From positions 1 through 49,414 of the forward strand of contig JANTGM010000038.1 in the NCBI GenBank assembly GCA_024762925.1: 49,414 nucleotides of DNA, read 5' to 3'. The position numbers and the translations under genes are program-made. This document shows positions 5,607 through 15,615 of the stretch, piece by piece. Position 1 is the first letter of the stretch; each line of letters starts with the position of its first letter. This DNA comes from Kofleriaceae bacterium (GTDB lineage: Bacteria; Myxococcota_A; Polyangia; Haliangiales; Haliangiaceae). Below the pieces are notes generated by a model, which searched no databases, was not told the DNA's origin, and worked only from the letters and a program-made list of their open reading frames with translations.

Positions 5607-7218
5607 TGAGCGTGGCTCCAAAGATTGTGAGTTTGCTATCGCTCTCTGGAGCGGTTCCCCCGAAGCTTCCTGGAATGGCTCCAAAGAACCCACCACTGTA
5701 GTCACTCTGGATGATGAGTGTGTGGAGGCGAGCGAAGAGCTTGTCATTGAATGGGAAAATGACATAGCCCTCGTAGGAGCTACCGCGGTTGGCGAGCTTG
5801 TTGCTCAGGTCGGTTGTTGGAGTGTTAAACGAAATCCAGTGCCGTGAGGCGAAGTTGTACTCGAATCCAATCTTTGGAGCTCGCTCCGAGTTGAGTGGAA
5901 GAGTGTAACGGCCTCCAAAGTAGCCAAAGTAGGTTGTCGTCGTGTCGCATTCTGCAGCGGGCACCAGGCCAACCATGGGGTCCTCGCTCCAACACTTCTC
6001 AGCAGATGCTAGACCCAAGAGGGGAAACTGCGTGGGATTCCCGTTCATGTCAGGTGGACCAACATTGTAGCTGATCGCAGCTCCCGGCTCGGGCTTGAGA
6101 AAGCCAACAGCCGCCGATGCGAAAAGATCAAGCCCGCTACCACCGAGGTCCTTGAAGAGCACAAGGGCACTGAGGTTTGCGTATGTTCCAAGAGTGGAAG
6201 GTTTCTGAGAGGGGAAGACCAGTGAACCGTCAAAAGGGGGAGGTGCGTTGGCCACGTTTGGCGGTGGGTTCGGATTGGAAATTGGTACCGTGAAGGGGCG
6301 GAACTTCGGTACCATGTAGAAGCCCAACTGGGTGTAGGCGCCCAGCTTTGGAGCTTTTAGGTCGATATTACCTCCGAGGATGCGCAGGTTCTTCGTGCCA
6401 TTGGTGAGGGGCAAGTTGAGCGAGTTTAGGTCGTTCTCCAATGGGAACGCCCAAGAAATGTAGAATCCGCGCATGAGCACATTCGAGGAGGGAGAGATCG
6501 TAAGATTTACCGTCTCATACTCACCGTCCACCATGTGCAGTCCCCAACTCGCGTCGCTCTCAGTGAGGTTCTCGCGAAGCTCCGCAGGTGAGCCGTTGCT
6601 GTAGGAGATACGACCCATGGACAGTGCCACCTTCTCGTGCACAAACCAATCAATCCACGCACGCTCCAAGCGGACCGAGTTGTCACGTGGAATTCGCGTC
6701 TCAGAAGAATCCTGAGCAAAGAGCGTCGCCGTGTTCGTTCCGTAGCGCTTGAACATCGTAAGACGACCAGTGAACCGTAGATCCTTGTATGGCTGCGCCT
6801 CCATGTTGAGCCGCAGGCGGTGAAGCCACTGCTCGTCATTCGTGGCATCAATGCGGACTGGAGCGCCGGTCATAGGATCGCGAGCTCCATCTGGCGATGG
6901 GCCTGAGAAGCGGTTGTGGGTCACAAGTGTTCGGTAGTCGCCACTCCATCGGATACGTTGAAGAAGACTTCGCGTCTCAACCTTGTCGAGCAAATCCTCA
7001 GTCGCTCGCAGCCGCTCCTCAAGTTCGTCAACAACTTGAGGATCCACGATTTCGATGGAGGATGGTGCTGGTGCGACTTTGGTCTCCTCTTCGGCAGGGG
7101 CACCCTCCTCCGACTGGGCGGCAGCTGTCTTCGCACCGAAGAGAAGCAGTGCACAAGCCACTGCGGAACCAACCAGGGTTGTGCGAGTGGAGCCAAAAAC
7201 CTTAGGTAATACGATCAT
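5593..7218 (-). CDS. DUF3373-type outer-membrane beta-barrel porin
   Basis: 541 residues with a cleavable signal peptide (hydrophobic core VGSAVACALLLFGAK, cleavage near TAAAQ). A short coiled-coil stretch follows (about residues 58-85, VDELEERLRATEDLLDKVE), typical of trimeric or peptidoglycan-proximal porin N-termini. The rest is a run of alternating-residue beta strands, including WLHRLRLNMEAQPYKDLRFTG and RLERAWIDWFV, ending in FGATLNATF with the terminal Phe expected of an outer-membrane protein. The pattern fits DUF3373, found mainly in delta- and epsilonproteobacteria. It overlaps the cytochrome gene upstream by ATGA and the small membrane protein downstream by 14 bp. Pairing with a c-type cytochrome recalls porin-cytochrome arrangements, though only one haem site is present here. 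The substrate is unknown. Confidence 0.75.
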   Translation of the reverse strand: MIVLPKVFGSTRTTLVGSAVACALLLFGAKTAAAQSEEGAPAEEETKVAPAPSSIEIVDPQVVDELEERLRATEDLLDKVETRSLLQRIRWSGDYRTLVTHNRFSGPSPDGARDPMTGAPVRIDATNDEQWLHRLRLNMEAQPYKDLRFTGRLTMFKRYGTNTATLFAQDSSETRIPRDNSVRLERAWIDWFVHEKVALSMGRISYSNGSPAELRENLTESDASWGLHMVDGEYETVNLTISPSSNVLMRGFYISWAFPLENDLNSLNLPLTNGTKNLRILGGNIDLKAPKLGAYTQLGFYMVPKFRPFTVPISNPNPPPNVANAPPPFDGSLVFPSQKPSTLGTYANLSALVLFKDLGGSGLDLFASAAVGFLKPEPGAAISYNVGPPDMNGNPTQFPLLGLASAEKCWSEDPMVGLVPAAECDTTTTYFGYFGGRYTLPLNSERAPKIGFEYNFASRHWISFNTPTTDLSNKLANRGSSYEGYVIFPFNDKLFARLHTLIIQSDYSGGFFGAIPGSFGGTAPESDSKLTIFGATLNATF

Positions 7219-8294
7219 CGAATGCCAGCTCCTTGATTGCGCGCTACATCCGCGGCTTTGCTTTTGAGATAGGTTTTTACGTGAGTTAGTTGTGCGGCGC
7301 TTACTGAGCCGCCGATTCGTCGATACCGATCATGGCTTCCTCGGGCGAAGAAGCGATCCCATTGAGAGATTGTGAAGCGACGCGGGCCTACCGTTGATGC
7401 CCCGTTCTTCCGATGGCAGCTATTGCACGTTGAAGCGAGAAGTCCCTGGCCTCGAGAAGCATTGCCTTCTGCGGAGGATGAGACTCGCGGAGTTCGGGGG
7501 AGTCGGTCGGCGACCACCAGCTCTGGTGTGGGGGTTGTCGTATCTGTGTTCTTCGGCTTGGCGGCAACCATCTTGACGAGCGACTCAGAAATTTTCTGAT
7601 TTTTTCCAGCTTCGATTCGGATGGTTACGACCTTGGGCGAATATCCTGAAAGGCTCAGCGCAACCGAGTGGCGCCCTGGAGCCATATCCACGCTGCTGAT
7701 TGGGCTCTTTCCGATGAACACACCATCTAGGGCAATGGTTGCACCCCTCGGTGATGTGCTAATTGAGGCCGTACCCATGGTTGGTGCTTCAACTGGTGCG
7801 GGATCGGGCTTTGGTGGAGTAACCTTCGTCTCTCGACCAATTCTTGGACGTTTCCCCGAGCTTTTCCCTGAGTTTCTCCCCGAGTTTCTCCCCGAGTTTC
7901 TCCCCGAGTTTTTCCCCGAGTTTTTCCCCGAGTTTCTATCGTTTGTCTTTGGGTCCACGGGCGCTATGGGGTCAACAGGATCGCCTGAAGCCTCCTCGAT
8001 TGTGCCTGCGTCGATCTGAACCTGCGCGACCAACTCCGGTTCGGTAGCCCCGCCATCCGCCGGCTCAGTGTCGGTCGTGGAAGGCGTATCAGGCGTTGCC
8101 ACATCGGTCCCTGCCACATCGGTCCCTGCCACATCGGTTCCTGCCGTTGCCGCTGCCATGTCAGCTGTGGACTCGTCCTTTTTGGAATCCTTTGAGTTGC
8201 GAACGACAAAGAAGATCGCGATTTGAACGGCAGCGATGGCCACCACTAGGATCGCAATGGTGCTTTTCTTAGTTTTTTTCCGGCTTGAACGCAT
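7215..8294 (-). CDS. Membrane-anchored PEGA-domain monoheme cytochrome c
   Basis: 359 residues, the first gene of the operon, with a strong ribosome site (AGGAG, about 5 nt before ATG). A basic N-terminus precedes one membrane helix (about residues 12-31). Then comes a low-complexity linker with GTDVA repeats (three) and seven NSGK/NSGR-type repeats, a PEGA domain (about 190-260, with SPRGATIALDGVFIGKSP and APGRHSVALSLSGY), and a C-terminal cytochrome domain (about 285-350) with one CNSCH haem site. No Met axial ligand is evident; the His in RGSHDRY could be the second ligand. The linker should span part of the periplasm, placing the haem and PEGA domains away from the inner membrane. A role in electron transfer or redox sensing alongside the porin and phosphatase is inferred. 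Confidence 0.82.
   Translation of the reverse strand: MRSSRKKTKKSTIAILVVAIAAVQIAIFFVVRNSKDSKKDESTADMAAATAGTDVAGTDVAGTDVATPDTPSTTDTEPADGGATEPELVAQVQIDAGTIEEASGDPVDPIAPVDPKTNDRNSGKNSGKNSGRNSGRNSGRNSGKSSGKRPRIGRETKVTPPKPDPAPVEAPTMGTASISTSPRGATIALDGVFIGKSPISSVDMAPGRHSVALSLSGYSPKVVTIRIEAGKNQKISESLVKMVAAKPKNTDTTTPTPELVVADRLPRTPRVSSSAEGNASRGQGLLASTCNSCHRKNGASTVGPRRFTISQWDRFFARGSHDRYRRIGGSVSAAQLTHVKTYLKSKAADVARNQGAGIR
7853..7937 (-). repeat. 12-bp tandem repeats coding for NSGK/NSGR
   Basis: About seven near-identical 12-bp units (plus-strand unit CCCGAGTTTCTC with C/T variants) lie within the cytochrome gene and encode the NSGK/NSGR linker. The unit is a multiple of three, so slippage would lengthen or shorten the linker without breaking the frame. 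Confidence 0.9.
8099..8143 (-). repeat. 15-bp tandem repeats coding for AGTDV
   Basis: Three copies of a 15-bp unit (plus strand CCACATCGGTCCCTG, one base different in the last) encode the periplasmic linker just after the membrane helix of the PEGA-cytochrome protein. Confidence 0.9.
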
Positions 8295-8890: not shown

Positions 8891-10666
8891 ATGACAAGCA
8901 AGCTAGCGCGATTCGCCATGGTCTTGGCTCTTGGGTGTGGCGGAAGCAGCGCTCGCACCACGACACCAAGCATCGCGACTGACAAGAAGGTGGCATCTGG
9001 CGCCCGTCCTGGAAGTGAGGTCGATACTCTGTGGAAAGCGGCTCCTGAAGGCACTGTAATGGGCATTGTGATTGCTCCAGGCACGACCTTGAAGCTCTAT
9101 GATATGGCAGAAGAGTTCTTACGGGTGGTAGAGGCACGTTCTGTGGGTGCAGAAATGATGGCCGAGGCGCGCAAGGAAATTTCTGAGCTTCCTTTCAATG
9201 TCTTCGACCGTCAGTCCTTTTCCTCGGCTGGCATTGATCTCTCGGGAGGTGCTGCCTTCTTCGTGGACTCGGAAAAGAGCGGTACAATGATCTTGCCGGT
9301 AACCAACAGCGAGGCGTTTCGGAAGTTCACGAAAGCGACACAGAAAACGATTGGTGAAACCACCATTGATGTCTTTGATGATGATTTCTACTGCATGGCT
9401 ACAGATGACGCGTATCTCTGTATGGAGGATGCAGAGAAACTCACTGCTCACACTGTGACCGGGCGCTCCCACTTCGCGGAACGCGTGTTTCGGCTGCCGG
9501 CGAGCTACCGAGGTGACGCCCAACTTGTTATGGACATGAACGCATTCGAAGCAATGGAAGACGAGCCCGACGAAGAGCTACATGAACTCTTTGACGAGCT
9601 TGGCTTGCTAGCAGCGGTCATTCAGCTTGAACGGGGCAGTGTGACAGCTCGTGCATGGATGCAGGCGAAACCCACGGGTGATTTGCAAGCAATCGTGGAG
9701 ACGGGGGCATCTGTTGGTGGTTTGAGCACAGGTGCGGGGGCCCTGCGGCCCTCGAGTTTTGCTCGCATGATTGTGCCATTGAAGCTCTTTTTGGACGAGG
9801 TTCCCGACCAGACGCTTCCGGGCGGAGCGAGTTTGCGCGACGACATCTTCGGCAAGCTAACTGGAGAGTTTGTGGCCTACACCCCAGCAAGTGCCACGCC
9901 CTGGGGGCGCTTTGCTATCGGCATTACAGAAGCACAGAGCTTTCGGGCGCTGCTCAACATGGGGTGCGCTTTGATACCACCCATGGACTTTCTCGAAGTT
10001 ACGAAGGGCGAGAACCGGTGTGACTTTGTTGTCGACTACGACAAAGTGCCAGGACTCGACGAGGCCGCTCGGTCAATGTTCAAAGGAAAGCTACCAGTGG
10101 CGGTTTCTGTGGAAGAGGATCAACTCGCGTTGACGATCGGAAGAGAGGCTCCAGTGGTAGAGGGCAGCAGCGTGAGCGAGATGGGCAAAGAGCTGCTCTA
10201 CAAGGAATGGAGTTACAGCCTCTGGACTCAGAACTTTTCCATCATTGCTGGTCTCGATGAACCTTGGTCTTCCGTAATCAAACTCCAACCTCAGGACATG
10301 CAAGAGGGCATGCAGTATGCCCTGTGGCTCTTGGCACATGTGAGCGAGTTCGCTGGTGCTGTCTCTGTGCAGGCCGATGGTCTACACATCCTCACCCACA
10401 TTGGCACCTACGCCTCAGATCCTGATGACGCGTACAAGGCGTTTGAAGCGGCGATTACAAAGAACATAGAACAAGGCGATAGCAGTGCGGAGTTTGCCGA
10501 GATTCGGCGCAAGTGGCCGGCGAGCCAAGCTGCACAGCAAAGCGCCGCGTCGGGGCCGTTCTCCGAAATATTCGCAAAGATGATTGCGAAGATCTCGGTT
10601 CCCGCATTTGTTGAGTACCTAGAACGAGCCTCGGCCTCGGAGGCTGGGAACAAGGCGGCAAAGTAG
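8891..10666 (+). CDS. Large lipoprotein of unknown function
   Basis: 591 residues with a short lipoprotein signal (MTSKLARFAMVLALGC, lipobox ALGC) followed by a Gly/Ser/Thr linker. The mature part is acidic and of mixed alpha/beta character, with repeated blocks of the form GIDLSGGAAFFVD, GDAQLVMDMNAFEAM and FAIGITEAQSF. This resembles the DUF3352-like/model-fit lipoproteins common in myxobacteria, in which a protein checks its own paired segments, but I cannot assign a family. No catalytic motif and no Cys-rich region is seen. The ATG at 8891 is chosen because it gives the lipoprotein signal directly; no good ribosome site precedes it. The gene stands alone, convergent with the small selenoprotein gene. 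Confidence 0.75.
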   Translation: MTSKLARFAMVLALGCGGSSARTTTPSIATDKKVASGARPGSEVDTLWKAAPEGTVMGIVIAPGTTLKLYDMAEEFLRVVEARSVGAEMMAEARKEISELPFNVFDRQSFSSAGIDLSGGAAFFVDSEKSGTMILPVTNSEAFRKFTKATQKTIGETTIDVFDDDFYCMATDDAYLCMEDAEKLTAHTVTGRSHFAERVFRLPASYRGDAQLVMDMNAFEAMEDEPDEELHELFDELGLLAAVIQLERGSVTARAWMQAKPTGDLQAIVETGASVGGLSTGAGALRPSSFARMIVPLKLFLDEVPDQTLPGGASLRDDIFGKLTGEFVAYTPASATPWGRFAIGITEAQSFRALLNMGCALIPPMDFLEVTKGENRCDFVVDYDKVPGLDEAARSMFKGKLPVAVSVEEDQLALTIGREAPVVEGSSVSEMGKELLYKEWSYSLWTQNFSIIAGLDEPWSSVIKLQPQDMQEGMQYALWLLAHVSEFAGAVSVQADGLHILTHIGTYASDPDDAYKAFEAAITKNIEQGDSSAEFAEIRRKWPASQAAQQSAASGPFSEIFAKMIAKISVPAFVEYLERASASEAGNKAAK

Positions 10667-10850: not shown

Positions 10851-11030
10851 CTACGTGGACGAGGTCGCCAGCATCAAACCGACAGCAGCTCCCAACCCAA
10901 TAGTCACGATTGGGTTACTTTGATTTGGTCAACCGGACGTGCAGCCAATGAAAACGTAGTAGGCCAATCCTGCAGCCCCTCCGAGGAGAGCGCCAACAAT
11001 CGGTACAGCTTTGCTTGGGCGGAGGCTCAC
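10851..11030 (-). CDS. Predicted small membrane selenoprotein (DUF6132-like), Sec at residue 34
   Basis: Read through one in-frame UGA (10931-10929), this gene encodes 59 residues ending at TAG. They form two hydrophobic helices, AVPIVGALLGGAAGLAYYVF and IVTIGLGAAVGLMLA, joined by IGC-TSG-U-P-NQ-SNP. The pattern matches DUF6132-type proteins (about 60 residues, two helices, YY.F.GC..G.CP..SNP...G...G). UGA sits exactly on the second conserved Cys, with one residue fewer between it and the first Cys. A perfect stem-loop with bacterial SECIS geometry follows the UGA. Start is GTG at 11030, the only standard start after an in-frame TAG; no clear ribosome site is visible. It lies 150 bp downstream of the kinase gene, same strand. 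Function is unknown; a Cys/Sec pair suggests thiol redox chemistry at the membrane surface. The alternative is a pseudogene with a nonsense mutation, but the SECIS and the second selenoprotein in this window argue against it. Confidence 0.72.
10894..10916 (-). promoter_or_regulatory. Bacterial SECIS element of the DUF6132-like gene
   Basis: In the mRNA (minus strand) the UGA is followed by 12 nt, then a perfect 8-bp stem AACCCAAU/AUUGGGUU with the 7-nt loop CGUGACU. The UGA-to-loop distance is 20 nt and the second loop base is G, both within published bacterial SECIS limits (about 16-37 nt; a G in the first two loop bases). It lies wholly inside the coding frame. On the plus strand it could be mistaken for a terminator of the convergent gene. 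Confidence 0.7.
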
Positions 11031-11180: not shown

Positions 11181-14100
11181 TTACTCTGAGCAGTTTCGCA
11201 ATTGCTCTTGCAAGGCTGCGACTTCGGATTCGCGCCCCAGTCCTTCCCACTGGGAGAGCGAGAACTGGTAGGCACGCTTGGCGCGCGCAGTCTCGCCAAC
11301 GGCAGCTGCGAGGTCACCGGCCATCTTCACCGGGTTGGCCACGTCGGTGTCAAACATGCTTCCAAGTCGCTCTTCCGCGACATCGAGATGGGCATCAAAG
11401 GCCGTCCAGTCCGAGCGAGCAGCGGCACAAGGGCACAGCATGGCGTGTGCGACACCGACGCCAGCATGCACGTCTTGAGAGATCAAGGACTCAAGAGCAC
11501 TGACAAAGAGACTCTCTGCTTCAGCAAACTTGCCGCGATCGACAAGCACTAGGCCAAGGTTCATCTCTGCATAGCCAATGTGGCCATATCCTGCCGCCGA
11601 GAGCATGCGAACCGCTAGTCGGTAGAGTTCTTCGGCTTTGTCGAGGTTGCCGTGCATGCGCTCGATGTCGCCAAGGGTGCTCTGGGCGAGTGCCGCTTGA
11701 GTTCGCGACCCGCCCTCGCGCACGAGCTTAAGACATCTTCTTATGTGGCTTCGGGCAATGTCGAACTGGCCCGCTTGAATGTTGCAGACGGCGAGTGCAC
11801 TGTAACAGGCGCCAAGCTGGATTGGGGCTTCGAGCCTTTCGAAAATCGAAATCGCCCGTCGGAACTGTTCTTCGGAACGCGCTAGGTTGCCACGGCCGAT
11901 CAGAATCCAGCCCTGCTCTCGCATCACCTGGCCCAAGAGCGTTTGATCGCTGAGGGTGGCCGCTAGTCGCTCCGATTCACGAGAGCGTCGCCAGGCTCTC
12001 GCAGACTCTCCGCGAAATCGAGCAACACGCTCACAGATGAGCAGAGCCTCGGCGAGCATTGCATCACTCCCCAGCGCTTTGCCCTGAGTGATGACTCTCT
12101 GCGCCCAGTCCATTGCCTCTTCAAGCCGCCCTTCGGCTCGACAACTGTGCGCCCAGAGAAGCCAGCCTTCAAGGCGTCGATGGTCATTATCACCGACCTT
12201 GAGCTTGTCGAGCGCCTCCTCGCGCTCACCGAGAATGAAGCGAGTCTCGCGGGTGTCGCCTCGGTTCTCCGAAGCTTTGGCGGCAGTGGTTAGCAGCGCA
12301 ACTGCCTGCTCAAGTTCGCCAGCAGCAAGCAGGTATCGGCCTGTGCGCATCTCCGAGCCGTCCTGCTCGGCCACAATCCAGGCACAGATGCGGTTGTAGC
12401 GCTCGTAGGAGCCGGCGTCTCGCGACATGCGCTCAAGGCTTTCTCGCAGCATGCCGTGAACAAAGGACCAACCCTGACTTGGACCCAGAGCATGAGCGTC
12501 TGCGAGTTTTTGTTCTAGCAAGGCCTCGACAAGATCCGAACTTGGTGTCGCACCCGCACGGTGGCAGGCGAGTTGCCACTCCTTCGCGTCAACGTCCTCG
12601 CCAAGCACAGCAGCGAGCTCTAGGGCGCGTTGGTCATTGCACGAGCGGCCATCCAGAATTCTTCCGATTCGCCCCGCCCACACTTGATGCAAGTCGTCTG
12701 GAACTTCAACCGTGACACCTGGCCGCAAGCGAAAGCCTCCATCTCCGCTTTCGAGAAGCCCCCGCTGCACCCACTCGCCCACGACTTGCACAGCGAAGAG
12801 GGGATTGCCTGCGCTCACCGACTCAACTCGCCTCGCCAGACTCTCTTCGAGGCCGAGCAGTTGGCGGACCAGAGTTTGTCTGTCTTTGGGCTCTAGGGGG
12901 CCAATAGAGAGCTGGCTTACGCCTTTCCTGCGAATGAGATTTTCTAGAATCGTCTCTGCGCGGCGATTGGCTGGGAGTGCCTCTTCTCGGACGGTGAGCA
13001 CGACAAGAGTGCGTCCTGAGACCTTGCGATTGGCGAGCAGTTGCCTGGCGAAGTAGAGAGAGTCAAGGCCCCACTGCACATCATCGATCCACACGATCGC
13101 TGTGCGCACGCGCCCAATGGCGGCCAACAAGCGGGCAACCAAGTGGTGACGCTCGGCGGCACTGCCAAAGCGCACCACTGGGCCGGTGGGAGCAGCCGCG
13201 TCCTTTGCGGGGGAAAGGAGTTCGGTGAGAGCCAACCAATCATCCGGATCGGCCATGTTGATTTGACGGAGTCTTGGCCCAAGGTGGTGAACGATCTTGC
13301 TGCGGGAGAGACCCTCCGCGTGCAAGTACCGTAGGAGCATCGCGGCAATGCCATCGTGCGGGCTTTCGATCGATCCGTGAAATCCGTGTAGCACGGTGCC
13401 CACACCCTCTTCATGCGCACGTTCACAGAGCCACTGCGTGAGTCGTGTTTTTCCTGTGCCGCTCGCTCCTCGCAAGCAGACAAGTTCCGCCTGTCCACTG
13501 TTGTGCACTCGCTTGAGGGCCGACCACATGTGGTCTCGCTCGTCTTGACGGCCGACAACCGAGATCGTTCGCAGGCCGTAGAGTCCCAGGCCTGAGCCAA
13601 TCAAGTGTGAAGAGGGCGCGCTACTCTCCTTGCAACGCCAATCGTCAGGAATAGGTCGCGTGTCATCCTCTTCAATTGTGGTGGAGTCGGTGGGCGAGAG
13701 CTGCGTCGGCAGGCCACTAACCTGCGTTGTCATCGTTGGCTCATCGGAGGAGCCACCAAAGGCCGGGGAAGGTGCTGCAGCCGTGCTCGAGTCTCCGTCG
13801 GATTCGCTGCGACCAATGCCGTATTCGAGTTCCGCACTGGTGCCCACATCAACTTCGCCCAGCGCCGCTAACGCGCGTGCGGCATCAGCCGCTCGCCGAA
13901 ATCGCTGCGAAGAATCGAGCATGAGCATGCGCCGGAGCCAGCCAAGAAAGCCTTGGGGCACGTCCATAAAAGGTGCCATAGCGGACTTTGGGCGGAGCAA
14001 GTAGCGAACGACTCGGCCGAGAGAATAGAGGTCGGTCCAGGGGCCGTAGTCTCGCCAGCGTCCACTAATTTGCTCGGGTGCCATGTAACCCGGCGTGCCA

Positions 14101-14654
14101 ACAGCTCGGCGCCCTTTCCATATGCTCTGGTCTCCTTCGAGTGCATGGGCAAGGCCAAAGTCGATGATGACAACTTCAGGAGCTTTGCCAGGCGTATGCG
14201 TTTCGCGGACCAAGATGTTGGCGGGTTTGAGATCACGATGAATGACGCCACGAGCATGCGCGTGACCAAGGGCTGAGAGCATGGACTGCAGCACTTCAAC
14301 CAGTTCAGACCAGACCAGCTCGCCGCGCAACCCTACCAACGTCCCACCGTCGGTGTACTCCATTACGAGATACGGGCTGCCCGCATGCATGTTCACCGCA
14401 CTCGCAACTTCGGGGGAAATCAGGCCATGATCGTAGACGCGCACCACTGCTGGGTGTGAGAGGCAGGCCACGGCTCGCACTTCGGTTCGAAACGATTCGT
14501 GAAAGCGTGGATTGTCGGCCTTGTGTGGGCTCACAAATTTGATCGCGACAGGAAGCTGATGCTCAATATGGGTACCTGTCCAGACCTGGCCCATACCGCC
14601 ACCGGCAAACAGCTCGCCCAGCTCGAATGCTCCTAGTCTGACTCTGGACTCCAA
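11181..14654 (-). CDS. Ser/Thr protein kinase with AAA-type ATPase and TPR domains
   Basis: About 1157 residues. The N-terminal kinase (about 5-275) begins GAFELGELFAGGGMGQVW and has VAIKF (ATP-anchoring Lys), HRDLKPANIL (catalytic loop), DFGLA and GTPGYMAPEQ (APE). A Ser/Thr/Asp-rich linker leads to an AAA/STAND-type ATPase with Walker A GASGTGKTR (about 395) and Walker B IVWIDDVQWG (about 520). The C-terminal third is TPR repeats (YSALAVCNIQAGQFDIARSHI and others). This architecture is typical of myxobacterial signal-transduction ATPases. It has no membrane helix, so is cytoplasmic. The start is a judgement: a TTG at 14654 preceded by GAAGGGG begins just before the kinase fold. A long in-frame extension to 14894 would overlap the upstream gene by 161 bp. 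It probably forms a transcript with the vWA lipoprotein upstream. Confidence 0.9.
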   Translation of the reverse strand: MESRVRLGAFELGELFAGGGMGQVWTGTHIEHQLPVAIKFVSPHKADNPRFHESFRTEVRAVACLSHPAVVRVYDHGLISPEVASAVNMHAGSPYLVMEYTDGGTLVGLRGELVWSELVEVLQSMLSALGHAHARGVIHRDLKPANILVRETHTPGKAPEVVIIDFGLAHALEGDQSIWKGRRAVGTPGYMAPEQISGRWRDYGPWTDLYSLGRVVRYLLRPKSAMAPFMDVPQGFLGWLRRMLMLDSSQRFRRAADAARALAALGEVDVGTSAELEYGIGRSESDGDSSTAAAPSPAFGGSSDEPTMTTQVSGLPTQLSPTDSTTIEEDDTRPIPDDWRCKESSAPSSHLIGSGLGLYGLRTISVVGRQDERDHMWSALKRVHNSGQAELVCLRGASGTGKTRLTQWLCERAHEEGVGTVLHGFHGSIESPHDGIAAMLLRYLHAEGLSRSKIVHHLGPRLRQINMADPDDWLALTELLSPAKDAAAPTGPVVRFGSAAERHHLVARLLAAIGRVRTAIVWIDDVQWGLDSLYFARQLLANRKVSGRTLVVLTVREEALPANRRAETILENLIRRKGVSQLSIGPLEPKDRQTLVRQLLGLEESLARRVESVSAGNPLFAVQVVGEWVQRGLLESGDGGFRLRPGVTVEVPDDLHQVWAGRIGRILDGRSCNDQRALELAAVLGEDVDAKEWQLACHRAGATPSSDLVEALLEQKLADAHALGPSQGWSFVHGMLRESLERMSRDAGSYERYNRICAWIVAEQDGSEMRTGRYLLAAGELEQAVALLTTAAKASENRGDTRETRFILGEREEALDKLKVGDNDHRRLEGWLLWAHSCRAEGRLEEAMDWAQRVITQGKALGSDAMLAEALLICERVARFRGESARAWRRSRESERLAATLSDQTLLGQVMREQGWILIGRGNLARSEEQFRRAISIFERLEAPIQLGACYSALAVCNIQAGQFDIARSHIRRCLKLVREGGSRTQAALAQSTLGDIERMHGNLDKAEELYRLAVRMLSAAGYGHIGYAEMNLGLVLVDRGKFAEAESLFVSALESLISQDVHAGVGVAHAMLCPCAAARSDWTAFDAHLDVAEERLGSMFDTDVANPVKMAGDLAAAVGETARAKRAYQFSLSQWEGLGRESEVAALQEQLRNCSE

Positions 14655-14733
14655 CCCGTCCCCTTCCAAACGGGCATCGTACCAGACGTATCGGCTTATT
14701 CTGGTAGGAGCTTGTGTGCAACGCTTGCTTGCG

Positions 14734-15615
14734 TCATTCGATGATCGGGAACTCTCGGCAAGCGGCGTCAAAGGTGTCGAGAGCACTTTGCAGTGGGCTC
14801 GCCAGATCGCCTGAGCAGATCGATGAGAACACCGCGTTGTCTCCGGCTCGAGTAACAAACTCTTGGAGCTTATTCGCTTGCAGGGCGTCTCCAAAGGTAG
14901 ACGAGCAGTCCTCTTCGCCAGCGATGACGGCTGTGGCCCAGCGTCCTCGATCGCCCTTTAGACCGTCCAAGAAGGCAATCGTGGATTCCGGTGGGACATA
15001 CTCGGGGTCGAAGTGGCGACACGTTTCGGCGATGATGTCGAACTCAAGATGAGAAAAATTCCTGTCAGTTCGAGAGCAGTCGTCTTCATCCGAGATCACG
15101 ACAATGCCCAAGAGAGCATCATCTCGCAGAAAGCCCGCGTTGGTCCCATCATCCACTCGATCGCGCATGGCAAGCTGTATCGCCCACAGGGGCATCTCCA
15201 AAGGAGGACCGTCCAAGCCGACGTTTGCAGCACAAGCAAACTGCGTCTTGGCATCAGGATCATCGCGATCGATCCAGCGTTTCGTCATGCCGCACTCTTG
15301 GCGCAGCGCACCGTTATCTCCAATAAGAGTATCGCTCTGAAGAGGAGGAGAGAACAGCGCAAAGTTCATGCCCGTAGTTGTGATGCCAACACGGTAGTCG
15401 AGAGCGCCAGCATTGAAGTTGTTGAGAATATCTATGAAACCAGGGAGGTTTGCGCTTAGATTTTCTTGCTCCTCTCGCATCGACTCAGAGTCATCGATGA
15501 CAAAGAGCAAATCCATTTTGCTGCAGACCTCAACATCGCCTGGGTTGGGCTCCGCATCTCGCTGCGAACTTGCATCAGAAGAGCAGGCTGCGGACGCGAG
15601 TAGCAAGCCCGACAT
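14734..15615 (-). CDS. vWA-domain lipoprotein
   Basis: 293 residues. The ATG at 15615 is fixed by an excellent ribosome site, GGAGGTG, 7 nt upstream. A short hydrophobic segment (MSGLLLASAACSS) gives a non-canonical lipobox or type I cleavage site; a longer start upstream is possible but lacks a ribosome site. The mature protein begins a von Willebrand factor A fold at about residue 30: LLFVIDDSESM holds the MIDAS D-x-S-x-S, and GIVVISDEDDCS supplies the later acidic cluster. Many Cys residues suggest an extracytoplasmic disulphide-bonded domain. This is a common myxobacterial family, often annotated as a hypothetical or vWA lipoprotein. It lies about 80 bp upstream of the kinase gene on the same strand and may be co-transcribed. 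Confidence 0.8.
   Translation of the reverse strand: MSGLLLASAACSSDASSQRDAEPNPGDVEVCSKMDLLFVIDDSESMREEQENLSANLPGFIDILNNFNAGALDYRVGITTTGMNFALFSPPLQSDTLIGDNGALRQECGMTKRWIDRDDPDAKTQFACAANVGLDGPPLEMPLWAIQLAMRDRVDDGTNAGFLRDDALLGIVVISDEDDCSRTDRNFSHLEFDIIAETCRHFDPEYVPPESTIAFLDGLKGDRGRWATAVIAGEEDCSSTFGDALQANKLQEFVTRAGDNAVFSSICSGDLASPLQSALDTFDAACREFPIIE

Follow-up and report, generated by a model that had tools for sequence, protein, structure and literature searches.

Proteins of the DUF6132 family (PF19628) are known in a Cys form, in which two glycine-rich membrane helices are joined by a GCxSG..C.ITSNP segment. A 2026 catalogue lists 119 families and subfamilies of prokaryotic selenoproteins, among them the YeeE/YedE transporters (PF04143), whose selenocysteine (Sec) form has the motif GUxSG, as well as DUF1858 and rhodanese-type selenoproteins (PMC13188914). 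A DUF6132-like family is absent from these 119 (PMC13188914), in keeping with an earlier note on this DNA that knew of no described Sec form. Among the new families of the deep-Sep paper, none was DUF6132-like by term match; NCBIfam contained no matching model, and published, non-subscription work held nothing relevant under the name DUF6132. The gene described here apparently represents, from comparison of sequences, an uncatalogued selenoprotein family; it belongs to a sister clade, with Sec, of a family that is known but uncharacterised. Its clade shares the two-helix architecture of the DUF6132 Cys form but differs in having Sec for the second Cys, a C-x3-U spacing and a score below the family cut-off.

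The window, that is, the whole 49,414-nucleotide stretch analysed, contains on its minus strand a predicted selenoprotein gene of 59 residues (10851..11030), delimited with the help of homologues. We infer a GTG start codon (11030-11028), with a weak Shine-Dalgarno sequence, and the frame, translated as VSLRPSKAVPIVGALLGGAAGLAYYVFIGCTSGUPNQSNPIVTIGLGAAVGLMLATSST with TGA read as U, contains a single internal TGA and ends in TAG (10853-10851). The internal TGA is codon 34 (10929..10931, minus strand) and lies in a loop motif, GCTSG-U-PNQSNP, between two predicted membrane helices. Its putative partner in a C-x3-U arrangement is Cys30 (10941..10943, minus strand), a column invariant in an alignment of 45 sequences. 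An AlphaFold2 model of moderate confidence (mean pLDDT 67, pTM 0.37) placed helix 1 at residues 8-27 (10950..11009), glycine-rich and preceded by a basic N-terminus, and helix 2 at residues 40-57 (10860..10913), both encoded on the minus strand, with C30 and U34 in the inter-helix loop. Profile searches found no relatives of solved structure. The mean charge was +1.7 for the N-terminus and about -0.1 for the loop, the C-terminus being neutral in the trimmed set. Under the positive-inside rule the charges suggest that the N-terminus is cytoplasmic and the uncharged loop periplasmic, so that the Cys/Sec pair would face the periplasm.

To find homologues, all six frames of 379 genomes from the phylum and 35 from the order were searched at the protein level, and orientation was fixed before TGA loci were counted. 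TGA was found at the homologous codon in 18 further loci, inside GCxSGU....[NS]P, and hence in 19 of 19 Sec-type loci when the window is included. These 18 homologues belong to the same GTDB family and order as the window (in named records, MAGs of Kofleriaceae, Myxococcales or 'Deltaproteobacteria') and share 39-66% of their residues with the window protein; two genomes of the same genus, of only 82-86% completeness, had no match. Third codon positions were the most variable among the Sec loci, and pN was lower than pS 3' of the TGA in 154 of 171 locus pairs (median pS 0.56, pN 0.38). The window gene comes from a single MAG contig and its Shine-Dalgarno sequence is weak, as would fit a pseudogene or assembly error in which the TGA is a nonsense mutation of a former Cys gene. 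However, the same TGA occurs in 19 separately assembled loci, purifying selection continues beyond it and the full Sec machinery is present; a conserved TGA with selection past it makes a pseudogene or sequencing error very unlikely indeed.

The UGA might alternatively be a true stop or be subject to near-cognate readthrough (as Trp or Cys), so that the 33-residue first helix would be the main product, and the unexceptional fold of the hairpin in the window (see below) would be compatible with this. Against it, the genes retain the second helix, the NP motif and the natural stop, all of them under selection, and homologues have Cys at or beside the place, a paralogue (L053) exactly there. The natural ends of the 19 Sec genes are mixed (13 TGA, 4 TAG and 2 TAA), and the uniform internal TGA is therefore not a mere local stop habit; since UGA is the normal stop of 13 of the 19, a general reassignment to Trp is excluded. 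Termination or readthrough appears decidedly improbable, and comparative sequence makes Sec coding at UGA34 close to certain.

The genome of the window encodes all components for Sec decoding: selA on contig C37 (579 bits), selB on C36 (332 bits, above cut-off), selD on C125 (374 bits), which has its own in-frame TGA in an HGGUAAK motif, and tRNA-Sec (selC, anticodon tca) on C126, no tRNA being found within the window. selB exceeded the cut-off in 27 of the 35 genomes of the order. Four carriers of the Sec gene fell below it, of which two (G367 and G390) are incomplete, one (G370) contains selB fragments and one (G288) is without such an explanation. The earlier note had proposed a membrane selenoprotein hidden by an in-frame UGA, to be checked by looking for the same UGA in related genomes and for Sec genes in this one. 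Both are present, selection extends past the TGA and the proposal stands; none of the contrary findings it had named (close relatives with TGT/TGC or a frameshift and no hairpin, a genome lacking selA, selB, selC and selD, or reads exposing the TGA as a sequencing error) was encountered.

The published model of bacterial SECIS elements specifies a loop of 3-9 nt, a stem of 4-16 bp, a spacing of 16-37 nt, a G within the first two loop positions and an energy of -7.5 kcal/mol or lower (PMC13188914). A candidate hairpin just downstream of the UGA (10893..10917, minus strand) satisfies all of these constraints, having a 9-bp stem (arms 10917-10909 and 10901-10893), a 7-nt loop, CGUGACU, that begins 20 nt past the UGA, and an energy of -9.1 kcal/mol. 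It had been described as a perfect stem-loop with SECIS geometry; the geometry agrees with the model, but the stem contains one G-U among its 9 bp and the fold is unexceptional (z -0.76, with 40 of 200 shuffles folding equally well), and about 4% of synonymous codon shuffles contain a stem of at least 9 bp with this geometry. Over the 19 loci, post-UGA hairpins averaged -8.1 kcal/mol, below all 30 synonymous-codon shuffles (about -4), and a strict hairpin filter was passed by only 8 of the 19. Covariation was seen among the 12 closest loci for a hairpin whose loop lies at about +31, with a score of 0.200 against 0.133 for shuffled alignments; 4 of 500 shuffles scored as high, and slid versions reached at most 0.10. 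The window sequence keeps this helix poorly and seems to use its own hairpin at +20, a different place from that in its relatives, instead; a consensus over all 19 loci contained no common strong structure. The SECIS evidence is thus consistent with Sec insertion, not decisive, and the covarying hairpin of the relatives is better evidence than that of the window.

Scanned against Pfam and NCBIfam, the 59-residue sequence had no significant match. The HMM comparison with DUF6132 that the earlier note had recommended gave 10.5 bits (E 0.51), below the gathering cut-off of 23.2, and no second DUF6132 protein in the genome of the window scored above cut-off. The window protein matches Cys homologues directly (E 2e-11 to 1e-5), and PF19628 is matched by 25 of the 45 aligned homologues (best 8.3e-10), which were assumed to be the C-x4-C proteins because these also number 25, the scan giving totals only. 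Comparison of the Sec and Cys profiles using hhalign, with U entered as C, gave a probability of 99.5% (E 2e-22). Residues G17, G21, G29, C30, G33, C/U34, P40 and G47 are invariant in the 45-sequence alignment. The Cys form reads GCxSGxC[PA]ITSNP and the Sec form is one residue shorter before U, with C-x3-U in 19 of 19 Sec loci as against C-x4-C in the DUF6132 Cys family. As it misses the DUF6132 cut-off, the Sec form is classed, by sequence comparison, as a homologous sister clade of that family. The description of a two-helix, DUF6132-related membrane protein in which Sec replaces the second Cys is thereby upheld, with the correction that the UGA does not fall exactly at the DUF6132 Cys, which lies one residue further on.

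Cys homologues were found in Myxococcota, Bacteroidota, Ignavibacteria, Firmicutes and Calditrichota; genome contigs were scanned with a query consisting of the closer subset of the Sec alignment, and no relatives were found in viral contigs. In a tree of 56 proteins, one branch (support 100/95) separated the 19 Sec proteins and L053 from the others. The simplest reading of these sequences would be that Cys changed to Sec once in the myxobacterial order and that a single duplicate reverted to Cys.

Two Cys proteins have C-x3-C spacing. The paralogue L053 (G300:C207:43847-43999, minus strand; GCSSGCWYQSSP), with the motif GCSSGC and Cys at the place of U34, accompanies a Sec gene in its genome and is probably a Sec-to-Cys reversion after duplication. 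The other, from a Caldithrix MAG (L186, 6070; GCNNGCALTGNP), is far from the Sec clade and adjoins a DUF1858-like gene. Two genomes, G391 (L046/L054) and G370 (L008/L055), have the Sec form together with an ordinary Cys DUF6132, and the two may have separate roles.

In the window, the gene lies between a kinase/AAA/TPR gene upstream on the same strand (11181-14894) and a convergent gene without Pfam match downstream (8891-10666). It stands apart, and the sulfur link rests on relatives. Elsewhere in the window (7215-8294, minus strand) is a gene for a PEGA-domain protein that has a repeat stretch of N-S-G-K/R and, at its C-terminus, a CNSCH motif resembling those that bind haem.

Clustering of neighbours at 101 loci, with a query set drawn from the same neighbourhoods and matches counted only between different loci, identified thioredoxin, thioredoxin reductase, DsbD_TM (CcdA-like), rhodanese, DUF302 and DUF1858-type genes beside Cys genes, the DUF1858 identity being a match below that model's own cut-off. 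Within 500 bp of 82 Cys loci, 73 frames of these types were on the same strand and none on the opposite one, compared with 4 and 1, respectively, at 4.5-6 kb. Such a neighbour was present on the same strand within 1.5 kb at only 6 of 19 Sec loci. Two Sec genes (at L080 and L081) have, downstream on the same strand, a gene for a metallo-beta-lactamase-fold plus rhodanese protein and then two YeeE/YedE half genes. Upstream of the Sec gene at L076 and L081 lies a DUF302 gene, its end being about 90 bp away. PF04143 matches were found in all 14 Sec genomes searched. At seven loci (L147, L158, L165, L167, L184, L185 and L186) the Cys DUF6132 gene has a same-strand neighbour that encodes a small DUF1858-like protein (CxxCGEP[VI]WG).

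The window clade resembles YeeE/YedE in having a GCTSG motif where a glycine-rich helix ends, and the genes of the two adjoin at L080 and L081. YeeE/YedE, in contrast, is a much larger multi-helix transporter, and its Sec replaces the first Cys whereas that of the window clade replaces the second. Homology to YeeE/YedE beyond GCxSG was rejected, as hhalign of single sequences gave a probability of about 1% or less, which is not significant. The likeness to DUF1858 and rhodanese-type selenoproteins is that their Cys forms adjoin Cys DUF6132 genes; these are soluble proteins with folds unrelated to that of the window protein.

Small membrane proteins with a Cys pair, for example mercuric transport proteins, have Sec forms (PMC13188914), and the Cys/Sec pair might similarly bind a metal or metalloid (Cu, Hg or As) in a membrane metal-handling accessory. 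This is unlikely given that the clustered neighbours are thiol-redox and sulfur genes, with no metal-resistance cluster recognised among them, and that the protein has no conserved His or third Cys. The closest competitor of a sulfur role is a pure electron relay, in which the protein would act as a membrane partner of DsbD/CcdA and reduce periplasmic thioredoxin-like proteins or peroxides without involving sulfane sulfur. Thioredoxin, thioredoxin reductase and DsbD_TM genes do lie beside many Cys homologues (L093, L101 and L128 among them), but the rhodanese, DUF302, metallo-hydrolase and YeeE/YedE neighbours, Sec loci included, point to sulfur substrates, and a relay of this kind seems somewhat doubtful.

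The explanation that we favour, and regard on the whole as fairly probable, is a Sec-decoded sister clade of DUF6132 with a periplasm-facing redox/sulfur pair. The product would be a 59-residue inner-membrane selenoprotein forming a two-helix hairpin with Cys30 and Sec34 in the short loop, UGA34 being decoded by SelB and tRNA-Sec with the hairpin just downstream. By analogy with other selenoproteins, Cys30 and Sec34 are likely to form a redox pair. On the periplasmic face it would cycle between a selenenyl-sulfide and the reduced thiol/selenol, or carry sulfane sulfur, with electrons supplied by thioredoxin and the DsbD/CcdA system. Substrates would be the sulfur compounds of the adjoining rhodanese, metallo-hydrolase (persulfide-dioxygenase-like) and YeeE/YedE transporter genes; for this sulfur role, suggested by neighbouring genes, the balance of probability is roughly even. 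With Sec in place of Cys, this exchange would be faster or less prone to overoxidation.

Standard gene calling cuts genes of this kind in half or misses them. Because the presence of Sec indicates that a residue is probably catalytic, DUF6132 gains a testable redox/sulfur-transfer hypothesis with named reactive residues. We tentatively suggest, as a possibility somewhat short of an even chance, that DUF6132-type proteins are a general membrane redox/sulfur-transfer module connecting cytoplasmic thioredoxin and CcdA with periplasmic sulfane sulfur and YeeE/YedE uptake, and that this module was converted once to a Sec enzyme in this myxobacterial order. If true, the window protein would rank among the smallest selenoproteins of bacteria and would offer a first point of entry to a family that has no known function.
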